The notes under the pieces were generated by a model that had not been told where the DNA came from, searched no databases, and was given only the letters and a program-made list of their open reading frames with translations. A program made the translations under genes and the position numbers. A DNA stretch of 5,389 bases from Pseudomonadota bacterium (lineage in GTDB: Bacteria; Pseudomonadota; Gammaproteobacteria; Steroidobacterales; Steroidobacteraceae), in assembly GCA_021817875.1 (NCBI GenBank), contig JAKAFQ010000324.1, positions 1 to 5,389 on the forward strand, written 5' to 3'. Shown in pieces: positions 330 to 5,060 of this stretch. Every line of letters starts with the position of its first letter. Positions within the stretch are counted from its first letter, which is position 1.

Positions 330-1199
330 TCAGCGCCGTCCGCTTCCGGACCACCCCGGGTAGCCGTCCAGTGGCTTGAGCAACGCATCGTCTTCGTCGT
401 TGCCCTCGCGGTCGGGGATGCCGGCGCGCGGCAAGGCGTCCAGCTCGTCCTGGTCCGTGCAGTGCAGCAAGGTCAGGGTCTGGTCGTACTCGGCGATGAA
501 AACGCTCGATTCGCTCAGCTCCACATCCTGCCAGCCTTCGAACCACGCATCGCCGCTGTAGGTGGCCGACCCGGATCGGCCACTACCGCCGCGCAACGCG
601 GCCGCCGCCGAGCCCGTGGGCAGGGGCGTGCCGCTGGACACCCAGCCGTTGGCGTCACGAAGCGCGGGCGACCGAACCATATGGCGCACCTTGCCGCCTT
701 CGCTCAACACGTAGGCGCAGGCGAGACGGGAGGTGGCGGCCACGCGCGAGGCGGTGGCCTCGCGAGAGGCGAAGAACTTTCCCCGCAATTCGTCGACCGC
801 GTCGAAGTCAGGTGCCATGCCGCGGGCCAGCGCGGTGAAGAAAACAATCGGCAAGAGCAATTCGGCCGCGAACACGTCACAGCACACCTCGTTGGGCGAT
901 CGCTTCGCGTAGCTCCAGTCGGCGCCATTGCCGTGCTCGGAAGGCAAGTCCAGGACGAGGTGACCGATTTCGTGGCACACGGTAAAGCGCCGGCGCGTGG
1001 CGCGATCCATTTCATTGATTGTGATCAACGGCCCGGCGCTCGTGACCATCGTGTACCCGGCTTCTCTCGGGTCGAGCACATCCAGCGAGACCTTGCCAGT
1101 GACCTTGGCCACGTACAGGCCCAAGTCCACCGGGACCGCCGAGACGCCGGCGTCCTGGACGAAACGCCGCGCCTTTTGCTCGGCCTCGAACTCGGTCAC
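330..1199 (-). CDS. ImmA/IrrE-family zinc metallopeptidase
   Basis: Predicted zinc protease of 289 residues. Residues about 1-120 form the ImmA/IrrE (gluzincin-like) domain. The zinc motif HEIGH is at 76-80 within RRRFTVCHEIGHLVLDLP, and the third ligand is probably Glu104, followed by the family-typical FAAELLLP segment (110-117). In this family the protease cleaves or inactivates an XRE repressor, as with ImmA on ImmR in ICEBs1 and IrrE/PprI on DdrO in Deinococcus. The C-terminal part (about 170-289) is longer than in minimal ImmA proteins, begins with a Gly/Ser-rich stretch around 188-212, and is unrecognised; by analogy with IrrE it may sense a signal. The GTG start at 1199 overlaps the stop of the upstream XRE gene (GTGA), so the two are translationally coupled and the partner repressor is almost certainly that protein. 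It is presumably cytoplasmic: no signal peptide or membrane segment is visible. Confidence 0.95.
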   Translation of the reverse strand: MTEFEAEQKARRFVQDAGVSAVPVDLGLYVAKVTGKVSLDVLDPREAGYTMVTSAGPLITINEMDRATRRRFTVCHEIGHLVLDLPSEHGNGADWSYAKRSPNEVCCDVFAAELLLPIVFFTALARGMAPDFDAVDELRGKFFASREATASRVAATSRLACAYVLSEGGKVRHMVRSPALRDANGWVSSGTPLPTGSAAAALRGGSGRSGSATYSGDAWFEGWQDVELSESSVFIAEYDQTLTLLHCTDQDELDALPRAGIPDREGNDEDDALLKPLDGYPGWSGSGRR

Positions 1200-1585
1200 T
1201 GACCGTCCATGATCCGCTTTGCTCGCCGGGCGCGCTCGATCAAGTCGGCGGGGGAGGGGCGGGCCGCCCCGCGATGCACCACGGTAGCGGCGATCGCCAG
1301 GATGTCCGGCGTCGCCTCGGTGTTGGTCAGCGCATGCAGCGCCAAGGCAGGATCGATGGAGTTGCTCGTGCGCAAAAAGCGCAGCACCGCGACCTGATGC
1401 GCCGTCGCCTTCAGGTGCCGGACCAACCGGGCGAAGGTTTCCTCCGGCGGCGGCTCCTTGTCCCCGCGCTCAATCTTGGCGATGTACGCGTGGTCAACCT
1501 CGGCCAGCGCGCCCAAGTCCCGCAGGGAAAGCTGTCGGGTTTCCCGTAATTCGCGCAGGACCACACCGAACGCGGACTCAGCCAC
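1196..1585 (-). CDS. XRE-family HTH transcriptional regulator
   Basis: DNA-binding regulator of 129 residues. The HTH_XRE domain fills about residues 6-62: FGVVLRELRETRQLSLRDLG, then ALAEVDHAYIAKIERGDKEPP, which is the typical helix-turn-helix with the 'IERG...P' signature. The C-terminal half (about 65-129) is helical, has no recognised domain and may be the part that the ImmA-like protease attacks. The frame is open further upstream to a GTG at 1633, which would give 145 residues. That codon lies inside the palindromic operator and has no ribosome-binding site, so I prefer the GTG at 1585, although it too lacks a clear Shine-Dalgarno. The gene overlaps the protease gene by four bases. It is divergent from the ubiquitin-like operon and probably represses both directions by binding the palindrome at 1612-1636. 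Function assignment is sure; start and target are inferred. Confidence 0.93.
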   Translation of the reverse strand: MAESAFGVVLRELRETRQLSLRDLGALAEVDHAYIAKIERGDKEPPPEETFARLVRHLKATAHQVAVLRFLRTSNSIDPALALHALTNTEATPDILAIAATVVHRGAARPSPADLIERARRAKRIMDGQ

Positions 1586-1593
1586 GACGAGGC

Positions 1594-1624
1594 TTGACGG
1601 CGGGGAGCACGACTGTGGTATAAT
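1594..1624 (+). promoter_or_regulatory. Rightward sigma-70-type promoter for the conjugation operon
   Basis: A consensus TATAAT (1619-1624) is preceded by TGG, giving an extended -10 (TGnTATAAT). TTGACG at 1594-1599 is a possible -35, but its 19-bp spacer is long, so the extended -10 probably compensates. Transcription would start near 1631 and leave a leader of about 165 bases before the ubiquitin-like gene. On the opposite strand a weaker TTATAC (1624-1619) could serve the XRE-protease operon, with transcription starting near 1612, just ahead of the GTG at 1585. Confidence 0.65.
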
Positions 1625-1636
1625 TTGGACCACAGT
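1612..1636. promoter_or_regulatory. Palindromic operator between the divergent operons
   Basis: ACTGTGGT (1612-1619) and ACCACAGT (1629-1636) are a perfect 8-bp inverted repeat with a 9-bp spacer, so the half-site centres are about 17 bp apart. That geometry suits a dimer of a lambda-cI-like XRE protein. The TATAAT box lies within the palindrome, so binding would block RNA polymerase. No second copy of the half-sites was seen elsewhere in the window. Assignment to the adjacent XRE regulator is an inference from position. Confidence 0.75.
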
Positions 1637-1787
1637 AGGGACGGAATGACGAAAACCTATGGGATGTGACTGACATATTTTTCAACATGATCCGTGGCCT
1701 GAAGTACGCTACAAGTATGACATGCCCCAAGCACCCTTTCAACGCGCCTTCCTCTGGGGTGCACCCAGTTCCGATTCACCACTTTGC

Positions 1788-1793
1788 GAGGAG
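1788..1793 (+). promoter_or_regulatory. Ribosome-binding site GAGGAG for the ubiquitin-like gene
   Basis: GAGGAG, five bases before the GTG at 1799, is the only strong Shine-Dalgarno in the three-gene operon and decides the start. The two downstream genes lack comparable sites and overlap their predecessors, so they probably depend on translational coupling and are made at lower levels than the modifier. Confidence 0.75.
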
Positions 1794-1798
1794 TTTCC

Positions 1799-2059
1799 GT
1801 GAATACCCATGACAAGAAGCCGCCGGACGACAAGGATTTCACCGTCAAGATCAACAACCGCACCTACAAGGTCCCGGGGCCGACCATCAGCTTCGAGGAC
1901 GTCCTGCGCTTGGGCGACATCAATACCGCCGGCCAGGATCCGAGCCTGTTCGACGTCGATTGGCGCCACGGCAACGAAGGTGGAACGCTCAAGCCCGGCC
2001 AGACCGTCGAGCTCCAGAACGGGATGCGCTTCGATGCCGGCAAGTCCAACCGCTCCTGA
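1799..2059 (+). CDS. Ubiquitin-like modifier (multi-ubiquitin-type beta-grasp domain)
   Basis: Small protein of 86 residues, presumably the modifier that is activated and attached to targets. After a charged N-terminal tail (1-12) a single beta-grasp domain runs from about 13 to 80: FTVKINNRTYKVPGPTISFE (14-33) is the first hairpin and helix start, DVLRLGDIN continues the helix, and LKPGQTVELQNGMRFDAG (64-81) is the last strand region. This pattern fits the prokaryotic multi-ubiquitin family, but with one domain rather than tandem copies. The tail after the last strand is GKSNRS, with no diglycine. The GTG start is chosen because GAGGAG (1788-1793) sits five bases upstream; an in-frame TTG at 1784 would overlap that site. 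The 3' end overlaps the next gene by 26 bases. The E1-like neighbour strongly supports the role. No target protein can be inferred. Confidence 0.85.
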   Translation: MNTHDKKPPDDKDFTVKINNRTYKVPGPTISFEDVLRLGDINTAGQDPSLFDVDWRHGNEGGTLKPGQTVELQNGMRFDAGKSNRS

Positions 2060-3224
2060 TCCGCACATCCAGCGACTGGTGGACGAACGCCATGAGGTAA
2101 CCATCGACGGTGGTTACCTCATCGTCGATCGCATCCCCTACGTGACGTCCGCCCGGGAAATCGCGTGGGGCGCCTTGATCTGCCCGTATCGCAGCGTCGA
2201 TGGCGTCCCGCAGCTCGACGACGATCACCAGTGCTGGTTTACCGGATCGATGCCGCACCGGGCGGACGGCACATCGCTTGAAGGTCCGTTGGTTTCGGAA
2301 AAGCAGGCGCAAACGGTTGCTGGCCGTACGGTGCAGATGCGCTTTTCGAACAAGCCCGAGCCCATCGGCGACTTCTTCGACAACCACTACAACAAGGTCA
2401 CGCACTACATCCGCAAGCTGTCCCGGCACGCCCGGGACATCGATCCGGCCGTTAGCGCTACCTCGGTGGGCTCGTATCGTCGCCGGGAGGTGCCTTCGGT
2501 CTTCCACTACGCTAACGACGCCATCGCGCAGGGCGGCCTCGACGCGGTTGCCGACAAGCTGCACCTCCGGCGGGTGTGCATCGTGGGCGTGGGCGGCACC
2601 GGCAGCTACCTGCTCGATGCATTGGCCAAGGAAGAAATCGAGCGCATCGATCTATACGATCATGACGCTATCGAACCCAAGAACCCCTTTCGAATGCCGG
2701 GAGCGATGAGCCGGGAGGACGCCTACGTCGGTCACAACAAGACCCTTTGGCTCGCATCGTGCTACGCCGCCATGCGCACCGGCGTCACGGGCCACCCGCA
2801 GCGGATCGACGCCGACAACGTTGCGGAGCTGGCCGGGGCGGACTTTGTTTTCATCGCTGTGGACCATGGGCCCTCGCGAGGAGTCATTGCGCGCTTCCTG
2901 GTGGAGCAGCGCATCCCGTTCATTGATGTGGGTATCGGCGTGGACAAGCGCGCGGACGTGGCGGCGCTCATCGCCCGGGCGCGGGTAACGCTGGTTACGC
3001 CGGATACAGCGCATCTGGTCAATGAGTTGCCGACGGCAGATGACTCGGAGGATGCGGTGTACAACAACATCCAGGTGCTCGAGATCAATGCGATCAATGC
3101 CATGCTCGCGGTGATCCGCTTCAAGCAGTATCTGGGCTTCTACGCCGCCGACGAGCACCCGGACGTCATCAAGTACGTGTCCAGTTGGAATGCCCTAGTG
3201 CTGCGCGGACCGACCCAGGCATGA
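2034..3224 (+). CDS. E2/E1-like fusion: DUF6791 N-terminal domain plus ThiF adenylyltransferase
   Basis: Activating enzyme of 396 residues, expected to adenylate the C-terminus of the ubiquitin-like protein with ATP. Residues about 11-147 match the DUF6791-type domain that precedes ThiF in such cassettes: VDRIPYV, WGALICPY, HQCWFTGSMP, RFSNKP (103-108), then DNHYNKVTHYIRKLSRHARDID. Residues about 165-370 form the ThiF/E1 Rossmann domain: the nucleotide loop GVGGTGS is at 185-191, followed by IDLYDHDAIEPKNPFRM (acidic and Asn/Arg positions at 209, 211, 217 and 220), Lys236 in GHNKT, and FIAVDHGPSR with Asp277. There are only four cysteines (50, 67, 182, 243), none in the crossover region after residue 300 and no CxxC zinc pairs, unlike canonical E1 or MoeB. 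The ATG at 2034 overlaps the upstream gene and has only a weak ribosome-binding site; a GTG at 2079 is an alternative. It shares ATGA with the next gene. Confidence 0.92.
   Translation: MPASPTAPDPHIQRLVDERHEVTIDGGYLIVDRIPYVTSAREIAWGALICPYRSVDGVPQLDDDHQCWFTGSMPHRADGTSLEGPLVSEKQAQTVAGRTVQMRFSNKPEPIGDFFDNHYNKVTHYIRKLSRHARDIDPAVSATSVGSYRRREVPSVFHYANDAIAQGGLDAVADKLHLRRVCIVGVGGTGSYLLDALAKEEIERIDLYDHDAIEPKNPFRMPGAMSREDAYVGHNKTLWLASCYAAMRTGVTGHPQRIDADNVAELAGADFVFIAVDHGPSRGVIARFLVEQRIPFIDVGIGVDKRADVAALIARARVTLVTPDTAHLVNELPTADDSEDAVYNNIQVLEINAINAMLAVIRFKQYLGFYAADEHPDVIKYVSSWNALVLRGPTQA
2092..2122 (+). promoter_or_regulatory. Perfect 12-bp hairpin at the modifier/E1 gene junction
   Basis: ATGAGGTAACCA (2092-2103) and TGGTTACCTCAT (2111-2122) pair perfectly around a seven-base loop. 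The hairpin begins 33 bases after the stop codon of the ubiquitin-like gene and lies inside codons about 20-30 of the E1-like gene. It could slow ribosomes or polymerase, or protect the upstream message from 3' decay, and so favour modifier over enzyme. No U tract follows, so it is not an intrinsic terminator. Any regulatory role is inferred. Confidence 0.55.
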
Positions 3225-3661
3225 AGATCCTCGAGCTGACCCCGCGTGATCTGGATGAGTTCCCCCGGGTGCTGGAGGAAGGTGTCCTGTACATCAGCGA
3301 AGAATGCGAGCTGGCCGCGCACAAGTGTTGTTGTGGCTGCGGCGAGGATGTGATCACGCCCTTGAACCCGGCGCGCTGGCGACTGAACCGCCATGGTGGG
3401 CGTGTGTCGCTGCACCCCTCGATCGGCAACTGGAAGTTTGCGTGCCGATCGCATTACTGGATCCGCAACAACCGCGTGATCCCGTCCTACGGCATGGACG
3501 ACGACCAGATTGCTGACGCCATCGAGCTAGACCGGGTGGACCGGGAGGATTACTTCGCGCAGTTGCAGCACGCGCTACCGTCCAGCGGTTCGCAGACGAG
3601 CGCTTGGAAACCGCAGCACTGGATCGCGCGGCTGTTCAAGCGCCTGCGAAGCTGGGTCTAG
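3221..3661 (+). CDS. DUF6527-like cysteine-rich protein of the ubiquitin-like cassette
   Basis: Protein of 146 residues that I recognise as the DUF6527-type partner found beside DUF6791-ThiF proteins. The core (about 20-92) holds a Cys cluster CCCGCG (36-41), ITPLNPARWRL (45-55), VSLHPSIGNW (62-71, with Ser67) and CRSHYWI (75-81, with Cys75 and His78). The Cys and His residues could bind zinc; Ser67 and His78 are also candidates for a catalytic pair. From memory, not checked, a protein of this type has been described as a deubiquitinase-like protease in the bacterial ubiquitination-like (Bub) pathway. If so, it would process the modifier or remove it from targets. The C-terminal tail after about 128 is tryptophan-rich and basic (HWIARLFKRLRSWV) and looks like an amphipathic helix. 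The start overlaps the E1-like stop (ATGA), implying coupling; no good ribosome-binding site precedes it. The family call is fairly sure, the activity is not. Confidence 0.85.
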   Translation: MKILELTPRDLDEFPRVLEEGVLYISEECELAAHKCCCGCGEDVITPLNPARWRLNRHGGRVSLHPSIGNWKFACRSHYWIRNNRVIPSYGMDDDQIADAIELDRVDREDYFAQLQHALPSSGSQTSAWKPQHWIARLFKRLRSWV

Positions 3662-3667
3662 ACGCCT

Positions 3668-3955
3668 TTACGGCCTGGCCGGGGCGCGGCCAGGCGGCGG
3701 CCGCACCGTATTGCGCGCCGCCACCACTTTCGACCCGATCTTCAGCACCGAGGCCACCGGCACGCCGACGAAATGGTCGCGATCATAGTTGACGGCCCAG
3801 TTCACCGCGCTCCCCGCCGGCCCGGAGTCGCGCGCAGTAGGGTCTTAGGACAGCGGCGCCCGATCTCAAGGCTGCGATGGCGAGCACGTCTGCGACCTTG
3901 CGCGCTCCCTCCGGGAAATACGTCAGGGCGGTCCGCCAGCACTCATTTAAAACGC
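3668..3955 (-). pseudogene. Decayed minus-strand coding remnant, unidentified
   Basis: Two adjoining minus-strand frames look coding by their third-position G/C bias and sensible composition. The 3' part (3668-3844, 58 codons) reads DSGPAGSAVNWAVNYDRDHF, then VGVPVASVLKIGSKVV and a Pro/Arg-rich tail ending in TAA. An in-frame TAA at 3845-3847 blocks it upstream. The next frame, upstream of that point, reads ECWRTALTYFPEGARKVADV and then LAIAALRSGAAV. A single shift near 3845 would join them into one protein C-terminus of roughly 95 residues. I do not recognise the family, and upstream of about 3955 the coding character is lost in the AT-rich patch. Most likely it is the tail of a gene broken when the cassette or its neighbour arrived. 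The start boundary is approximate. Confidence 0.45.
3673..3695 (+). terminator. GC-rich hairpin after the conjugation operon
   Basis: GCCTGGCC (3673-3680) and GGCCAGGC (3688-3695) form a perfect 8-bp stem with a seven-base loop, 12 bases after the last gene of the operon. There is no T run downstream on this strand, so it may be a weak or Rho-assisted terminator or an mRNA 3'-end stabiliser. It lies inside the 3' end of the minus-strand coding remnant. Confidence 0.5.
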
Positions 3956-4169: not shown

Positions 4170-5060
4170 TCAGATGGTCGCAACGATTCGGTAATACAGT
4201 TCCTCGCGTAGTTGCTCCGGAGTGTCCCAAAGAATATGGTTGTACTGGCGCGTGTCAAAGTGCATGTCGGTCTTACGATCGCTCCGGCAGGTCCAGATGA
4301 CAGAGCGCCCCAGGCCAAGCGCATAGCCTGCCTCGAAATAGACACCCTGCGCCCCGAAGGTGACGTCGGCTATCACGAATCGGGATTGCTTGAGTTCTGC
4401 GATGATGTGGGCGTCGATCTGATCGTTGTGCTGTGGGTCATTCGCGAGTCTCGGCACGAAGCGAGCGCGCTCTATCGCAGGGGCGAAGGTCGTTGGCCAC
4501 AGAGCCAGCATGTCCGCGTTGAACTTCATCGCGACGAAGGCCGTTTTCGAGGCTGCGGGCTGATTCGCAAGCTCCGCAGCTCGCATCCACCCCGCGTGAA
4601 GTATCCGGAACTCCCGACCGGATCGCACTTCGATTAGCTCCGCTTTCTGCAAAGCATCGAGAAAAAATTCGAGGTCGCGTTCTTCGCGAGCACAAGCGAG
4701 CGACTTTTCGCGGTACCCGTCGATCTTGAAGCCCGCACCGGGTTCGGGGTGAAGCAACGTCAATGACCGTAGAAGCAAGTCAGGCTTGGTGTGGGTGGGC
4801 GGATTTGGTAGTTGCGCGAGGATGCCGTCAATCGTGTGGCGAGAGAGGGGTGGCGGCGGGCGCCCTTCGAGTTGGCGCTGCTTGCACCAGTAGCTGAAAC
4901 GGAAGCGCTCCGAGTCTGGCAGCGGGAACCGCGATGCCTTGAGAGAACCAGTGATCGTGTACTCGCCGCAGGTCTTGCAGTCGACTTGAGTGAGGTCGCG
5001 AACGATCGGAAACGGCTGCGCGAACTCTCCTGCGCAGATCCAGCAGAAATCGTGGGCCAC
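4170..5060 (-). CDS. Zinc-ribbon plus nucleoside 2-deoxyribosyltransferase-like protein
   Basis: Protein of 296 residues with two recognisable parts. The N-terminus carries CWIC (6-9) and CKTC (28-31), a zinc-ribbon-like pair. A helical middle (about 75-165) may hold a winged-helix-like segment, DLEFFLDALQKAELIEVRSG. Residues about 172-296 resemble the nucleoside 2-deoxyribosyltransferase fold: AFVAMKFN (174-181), PAIERARFVPR (194-204), SRFVIADVT (226-234), GVYFEAGYALGLGRSVIW (239-256) and HFDTRQYNHILW (267-278). Glu243 lies where the family's nucleophilic glutamate is expected. Relatives in the TIR/NDT superfamily cleave N-glycosidic bonds of nucleosides or nucleotides, and several act in phage defence, so an NAD- or nucleotide-degrading effector is possible but unproven. 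The GTG start at 5060 is preceded by a GGGGGAA-like site about seven bases upstream. It stands alone, convergent with the conjugation operon and separated from it by about 500 bases. No membrane segment is visible. Confidence 0.85.
   Translation of the reverse strand: MAHDFCWICAGEFAQPFPIVRDLTQVDCKTCGEYTITGSLKASRFPLPDSERFRFSYWCKQRQLEGRPPPPLSRHTIDGILAQLPNPPTHTKPDLLLRSLTLLHPEPGAGFKIDGYREKSLACAREERDLEFFLDALQKAELIEVRSGREFRILHAGWMRAAELANQPAASKTAFVAMKFNADMLALWPTTFAPAIERARFVPRLANDPQHNDQIDAHIIAELKQSRFVIADVTFGAQGVYFEAGYALGLGRSVIWTCRSDRKTDMHFDTRQYNHILWDTPEQLREELYYRIVATI

Follow-up and report, generated by a model that had tools for sequence, protein, structure and literature searches.

How can a bacterial ubiquitin-like conjugation operon work when it encodes neither a free E2 nor a JAB peptidase? 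The question is raised by a 5,389-nucleotide (nt) stretch of contig JAKAFQ010000324.1 (assembly GCA_021817875.1; Steroidobacteraceae, Gammaproteobacteria), called the window here, in which three overlapping genes encode a ubiquitin-like modifier (Ubl), a DUF6791-ThiF fusion and a DUF6527 protein. Sequence comparisons indicate that this is very likely a bacterial ubiquitination-like (Bub) operon of a DUF6791 branch, lying beside a CapH/CapP pair. The open reading frames (ORFs) lie exactly where the original prediction had placed them, with overlaps of 26 and 4 bases. Its description of a ubiquitin-like conjugation-type operon with a DUF6791-fused E1 also stands, as the Pfam matches of all three operon proteins exceed the family cut-offs, and no JAB or E2 family is found by Pfam in the six main ORFs and 7 further ORFs of the 5.4-kb window. 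Our overall reading, to which we give an even chance, is that the E1 activates a Ubl ending in serine and that DUF6791 transfers this Ubl without a cysteine.

The Ubl is free-standing, and its homology to a solved protein points to a beta-grasp domain, as had been predicted. A profile from 23 Ubl relatives scores 4.4e-8 against the last domain (residues 143-219 of 222) of 9cd2, a solved multi-ubiquitin domain protein; the single Ubl sequence reaches just 0.026. The last residue of the ORF is Ser86, with no terminal glycine. The 50 homologues found by a search that favours shared words all end in Ser, 49 of them with FDAGKSNRS. Fusion matches gave 53 non-redundant loci (individual loci carry L numbers), of which 3 stop short of the fusion start, and the remaining 50 were scored. 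Tail length is identical in all 50. The counts for single tail residues refer to the 45 loci with a 26-nt overlap between the Ubl and fusion genes, the five exceptions being L007 and L056-L059. Among the 45, all but L043, which ends in Ala, have Ser as the terminal residue (44/45); the five exceptions, by reading, have Ser there as well, which brings the count to 49/50. Thr or Ser occupies the fourth-last position in 44/45 loci, and Lys, Arg or Gln the second-last in 43/45. The tails of the five exceptions end in TGES.

These data bear on the possibility that DUF6527 or a host peptidase cuts off KSNRS, leaving an ordinary Gly-ended Ubl with the terminus FDAG. Gly81 is present in the window and in all 50 searched homologues, yet only 6 of the 45 loci have Gly at that position, and the Ubl of the DUF6791 branch has no conserved Gly. 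Furthermore, the five residues past Gly81 are unlike a discarded peptide. Because the tail is fixed in length and its last residue is conserved, trimming is less favoured, and we consider it quite improbable.

The codons of the tail also contain the start of the fusion gene. In 45 of the 50 loci, the fusion start codon (ATG in 42, GTG in 3) opens a 26-nt overlap that ends with the Ubl stop codon. In L007 and L056-L059, the nearest fusion ATG lies 15 nt further upstream, giving a 41-nt overlap, and the length of the Ubl tail is kept. Overlap entropy was computed on 31 loci thinned at 60% identity. For codon positions 1, 2 and 3, the Ubl frame gives 1.18, 0.92 and 1.35 and the fusion frame 0.92, 1.35 and 1.18. 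Coding sequence immediately upstream gives 0.94, 0.91 and 1.53 and that downstream 1.17, 0.95 and 1.74, with the usual high third position. Variation in the overlap thus tracks the Ubl frame, which suggests that selection acts to keep the Ubl tail. The tail residue at the nested start is Asn or Asp in 41/45 loci, and its codon ends in T in 41/41; elsewhere in the fusion genes, 44% of Asn/Asp codons end in T. In the thinned set, the codon ends in T in 28/28 cases, with a naive probability of ~10^-12.5, uncorrected for shared ancestry. These codon statistics indicate that the nested start is held by selection alongside the Ubl tail.

The original prediction assigned activation, and probably transfer, to the fusion, and its first half is upheld by the conserved E1 residues. 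NCBI model PRK06153.1-3 clears its cut-off on the fusion (376.6 versus 340 bits), and the best named homologue is annotated as Metallibacterium scheffleri (94%). The nucleotide-binding residues are intact: G185, G187, G188, G190, D209, D211, R220, K236 and D298 are invariant among 37 aligned fusions, and T189 and D277 nearly so. The ThiF core columns are likewise invariant or nearly so in an alignment of 49, and D211 and D277 are kept in 44/45 and 43/45 loci, respectively. E1-type adenylation by the fusion is therefore likely. The closest solved relative is Citrobacter BubCD, and the E1 (ThiF) part forms the C-terminal half. A different use of such an enzyme is known from MccB, the microcin C7 adenylyltransferase, whose substrate has a non-Gly end and which uses no Cys chemistry. 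By analogy, the E1 might solely nucleotidylate or otherwise modify the Ser-ended tail, and the modified Ubl would be a signal or ligand and no protein tag. However, BubCD, 4d7a (a tRNA-modifying E1 relative, 2.8e-9) and UBA5 (4.1e-7) all outscore MccB in sequence comparison, and DUF6791 and DUF6527 would be left without an obvious role. We regard this explanation as unlikely.

The second half of that assignment, transfer by the fusion, is unproven, as no Cys column is conserved across the fusion in the 45 loci: residue 75 is Cys in 30/45 and residue 275 in 20/45. The window fusion carries His75 and Ala275, and no E2-type catalytic Cys is conserved in DUF6791, where residue 75 is the best candidate. 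Of all 50 loci, 31 have Cys at this residue and 14 have His; of 120 homologues of the window fusion, 66 have His and 42 have Cys. The spacing of ten between H65 and C75 resembles the HPN-to-Cys spacing of classical E2s. The residues H65, G71, P74 and S105 are found in 50/50 loci and K107 in 48/50. DUF6791 could instead be a hydrolase or binding domain in JAB's stead, active in deconjugation or proofreading, with transfer directly from the E1. It occupies the position of JAB on the E1, and metal ligands typically show Cys/His exchange of the kind seen at residue 75. However, the JAMM motif (HxH..SxxD) is found in 0/45 N-terminal 170-residue stretches of DUF6791-branch fusions compared with 6/6 JAB-type E1 fusions, and the predicted order of elements in DUF6791 (helix, strand meander, helix) looks closer to E2/RWD, a weak point. 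This role is unlikely in our estimate.

The DUF6791 branch was compared with six JAB-type loci, L063 and L107-L111, the latter hand-picked from 40 rows spread over 82 plasmid records. Prok-E2_E is found by Pfam in 6/6; it has no conserved Cys and an invariant WSRH in 6/6. In Bub, a serine reportedly stands in the place of the cysteine. The Prok-JAB cut-off is passed by three of the five JAB fusions submitted, with L109 and L110 below it and the L108 fusion outside that set. By reading, the JAB-type Ubl reaches Gly in 6/6, before the fused E2 in five and at its own end in one (Synechocystis), at a presumed cleavage point. The DUF6791 branch thus departs from the solved Bub type as a package, with tail, E2 and JAB together.

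Several points weigh against our overall reading. First, Cys284 is present in 6/6 JAB-type E1s, opposite Ala275 of the window fusion. Tyr370, which the depositors of 9eav changed to Phe, is also present in 6/6, within a stretch that has no counterpart in the window fusion. Because the fusion lacks both residues, its E1 step may differ from that of the JAB type. Second, the exchange at residue 75 fits a metal ligand as well as an E2 active site. Third, in a structure search with the fusion the E1 part filled the match list, and a profile comparison of DUF6791 to the E2 fold, whose positive control failed, was uninformative. Finally, according to PMC13373217, phage protection by Bub is not demonstrated.

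The DUF6527 protein had been considered the only candidate for processing or deconjugation. Residues H34, C36, C38, C40, C75, S77 and H78 are kept in 39 aligned sequences, a pattern of the metal-binding type; L007, outside this alignment, has a DUF6527 without the first His. DUF6527 is assigned in every one of the six JAB-type loci as well (by Pfam in L063, by annotation in L107-L111); thus, its presence is not explained simply as a replacement for JAB. The fixed Ubl tail speaks against trimming as well, and the proposed sole role is not supported.

Nor is the operon a minimal, divergent version of the machinery, as had been suggested: its layout is usual for a broad family, and polyUbl operons with a distinct domain replacing JAB on the E1 are already listed in Iyer et al. 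2006 (PMC1779556). Among candidates scored, DUF6527 has 4658 homologues of 4668 and DUF6791-ThiF at least 677 of 7995. DUF6791 is present in 8/398, 3/396 and 7/385 genomes of three samples, each including its centre genome, already known to carry DUF6791. Of 72,556 plasmid records, 152 contain a match to the fusion; in 109 the match extends over 80% or more of the fusion, and the remainder may reflect ThiF alone. None of 50,697 phage records matches. We opened 24 plasmid regions hand-picked for diversity, 12 from the search with the window fusion and 12 from one in which the L028 fusion was the query (116 records). Judged by product names, ThiF is present in 24/24, multiubiquitin in 23/24 (in L027 the frame is present without annotation) and DUF6527 in 22/24, with none annotated in L056; no gene named JAB, Mov34, E2 or UBC occurs across the 24 stretches. 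Among the hosts are Proteobacteria, Actinomycetota, Bacteroidota, Bacillota and Cyanobacteriota. The triplet expected from a gene-neighbourhood check is found across these regions, and since it recurs across phyla in the same gene order and mostly with the same 26-nt overlap, it goes beyond chance. The operon is one mobile copy of a widespread known family, from a little-studied branch.

An upstream IrrE-type peptidase gene is present in 8/24 plasmid regions and a WYL regulator in 3/24. In 4/24 operons, the Ubl is preceded by small DUF3892, DUF1508 or DUF2188 genes (L018, 3121-3405; L019, 3334-3504; L022, 3476-3709; L061, 3035-3256), and a UvrD-helicase-domain gene lies on the upstream side in 5/24 (L028, L029, L051, L058 and L062). 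In L019, an IS256-family transposase gene (5368-6615) directly follows DUF6791-ThiF, and the DUF6527 frame looks truncated. The Acinetobacter johnsonii plasmid NZ_CP010358.1 carries both a DUF6791-type (L051) and a JAB/E2-type (L110) Bub operon, ~26 kb apart.

The features of the window are listed in the table. The divergent CapH/CapP pair was absent from the original prediction; the solved CapP 7t5t matches the CapP-like protein at 1.1e-6. Nucleotide homology covers 332-3662 in L003, 276-3773 plus 3950-4163 in L002 and 1110-3773 plus 3950-4163 in L001, where the match stops inside capP with 127 bases of that contig left. No nucleotide match to the downstream gene (4170-5060) exists in L001-L003; given this and the extent of the L003 match, the five genes form one cassette. 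The intergenic region contains no exact palindrome (arms of at least 6, gap up to 8) and a single promoter-like site, on the - strand. In genome G003, which carries L003 with a fusion 93% identical to that of the window, a profile search gives no match to Prok-E2_E or Prok-E2_B, and one match to Prok-JAB barely above the cut-off (27.1 versus 25 bits, 1.4e-5), on a different contig from L003. The downstream gene (- strand) encodes a 296-residue protein whose C-terminal part resembles the PADLOC TIR effector model (2.6e-9); Nuc_deoxyrib_tr is slightly under its cut-off (27.0 versus 28.8 bits) and phrog_16139 matches at 1.3e-36. It is possibly another defence gene, outside the cassette.

Table. 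Positions and supporting matches of the features in the 5,389-nt window.
Feature	Position	Strand	Support
CapP-like metallopeptidase (IrrE/M78)	330-1199	-	PADLOC capP 2.7e-47; Pfam Peptidase_M78 1.6e-11
CapH-like helix-turn-helix repressor	1196-1633	-	Pfam HTH_31 2.2e-13; PADLOC capH 2.8e-9
Divergent intergenic region, 165 bp, presumed operator/promoter of both units	1634-1798		Position only
BubA-type Ubl, one Multi_ubiq domain, GTG start, 86 aa	1799-2059	+	Pfam Multi_ubiq 1.8e-9
Conserved Ubl C-terminal tail F-D-A-G-K-S-N-R-S, residues 78-86	2030-2056	+	
26-nt overlap, fusion start codon nested in Ubl tail codons	2034-2059	+	
DUF6791-ThiF fusion, ATG start, 396 aa, E1-like	2034-3224	+	Pfam DUF6791 1.6e-36 plus ThiF 2e-17
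DUF6791 domain	2064-2516	+	Conserved H65, G71, P74, S105, K107
ThiF/E1 adenylation core	2550-2936	+	Pfam; GxGGTG, D209xD211, R220, K236, D277
4-nt overlap of fusion and DUF6527 genes	3221-3224		
BubE-type DUF6527 protein, ATG start, 146 aa, Cys/His-rich	3221-3661	+	Pfam DUF6527 7.8e-25
Five-gene cassette capP-capH / bubA - DUF6791-ThiF - DUF6527	332-3662		Nucleotide homology to relatives

We propose that DNA damage would activate CapP, by analogy with other CapP systems in which single-stranded DNA is the activator, and that cleavage of CapH would then turn the operon on. The E1 would adenylate the C-terminus of the Ubl at its natural tail; because this tail itself ends in Ser, no maturation peptidase would be needed. 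DUF6791, on the E1 in JAB's usual place, would hand the Ubl to the target without a catalytic Cys, with the invariant Ser105 as the leading candidate catalytic residue. DUF6527 may work at a step in common with JAB-type Bub, either recognition of the target or conjugate or hydrolysis, and the nested start codon would couple synthesis of the E1 fusion to Ubl translation. Transfer by DUF6791 without Cys, the Ser-ended tag and conjugation itself form a coherent picture that we infer from the sequences. More tentatively, the whole branch may share a fixed Ser-tail modifier without Gly, an E1 without a conserved Cys and DUF6791 in place of the E2, with no JAB; tail change and enzyme exchange would then be linked, the enzyme gene starting inside the tail codons. 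Gly-ended modifiers and Cys-based transfer are regarded as the core of ubiquitin chemistry, and attachment of a Ser-ended Ubl without Cys would mean that this core is changeable. The three-gene set is small and thus easy to reconstitute, and the CapH/CapP pair would place it among damage-switched immune-type operons.

Lastly, we compared the operon with known systems. Neither DUF6791 nor DUF6527 is mentioned by name in the literature searched, to which Ye 2026 and Gong 2025, the primary papers on Bub, and Chambers 2024 did not belong. PMC12687455 describes Bub operons as complete sets of Ubl, E1, E2 and protease. MccB shares the E1 core fold, whereas the window E1 is fused to DUF6791 and has a Ubl as its partner. 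Bil (BilABCD) and CBASS Cap2/Cap3 are also bacterial E1/E2 machinery; however, the PADLOC E1-E2 models match only the ThiF part of the fusion, and the window has neither an E2 family nor JAB. Citrobacter-type Bub (PDB 9ea4, 9ea5, 9ea8, 9eae and 9eav) is similar in its Multi_ubiq Ubl, C-terminal E1 in a fusion, DUF6527 gene in last place and occurrence on plasmids. There, the Ubl reaches Gly and is fused (5/6) or adjacent (1/6) to Prok-E2_E, and the E1 carries JAB with JAMM, whereas the window has a free Ser-ended Ubl, no E2_E and DUF6791 where JAB sits. Among the polyUbl operons of Iyer et al. 2006 (PMC1779556), row 6e combines PolyUbl, an E1 on which a distinct domain 'X' replaces JAB and a metal-binding protein Y; the window differs in its single Ubl domain. 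Row 6e is most likely the DUF6791 branch itself; X would then correspond to DUF6791 and Y to DUF6527.
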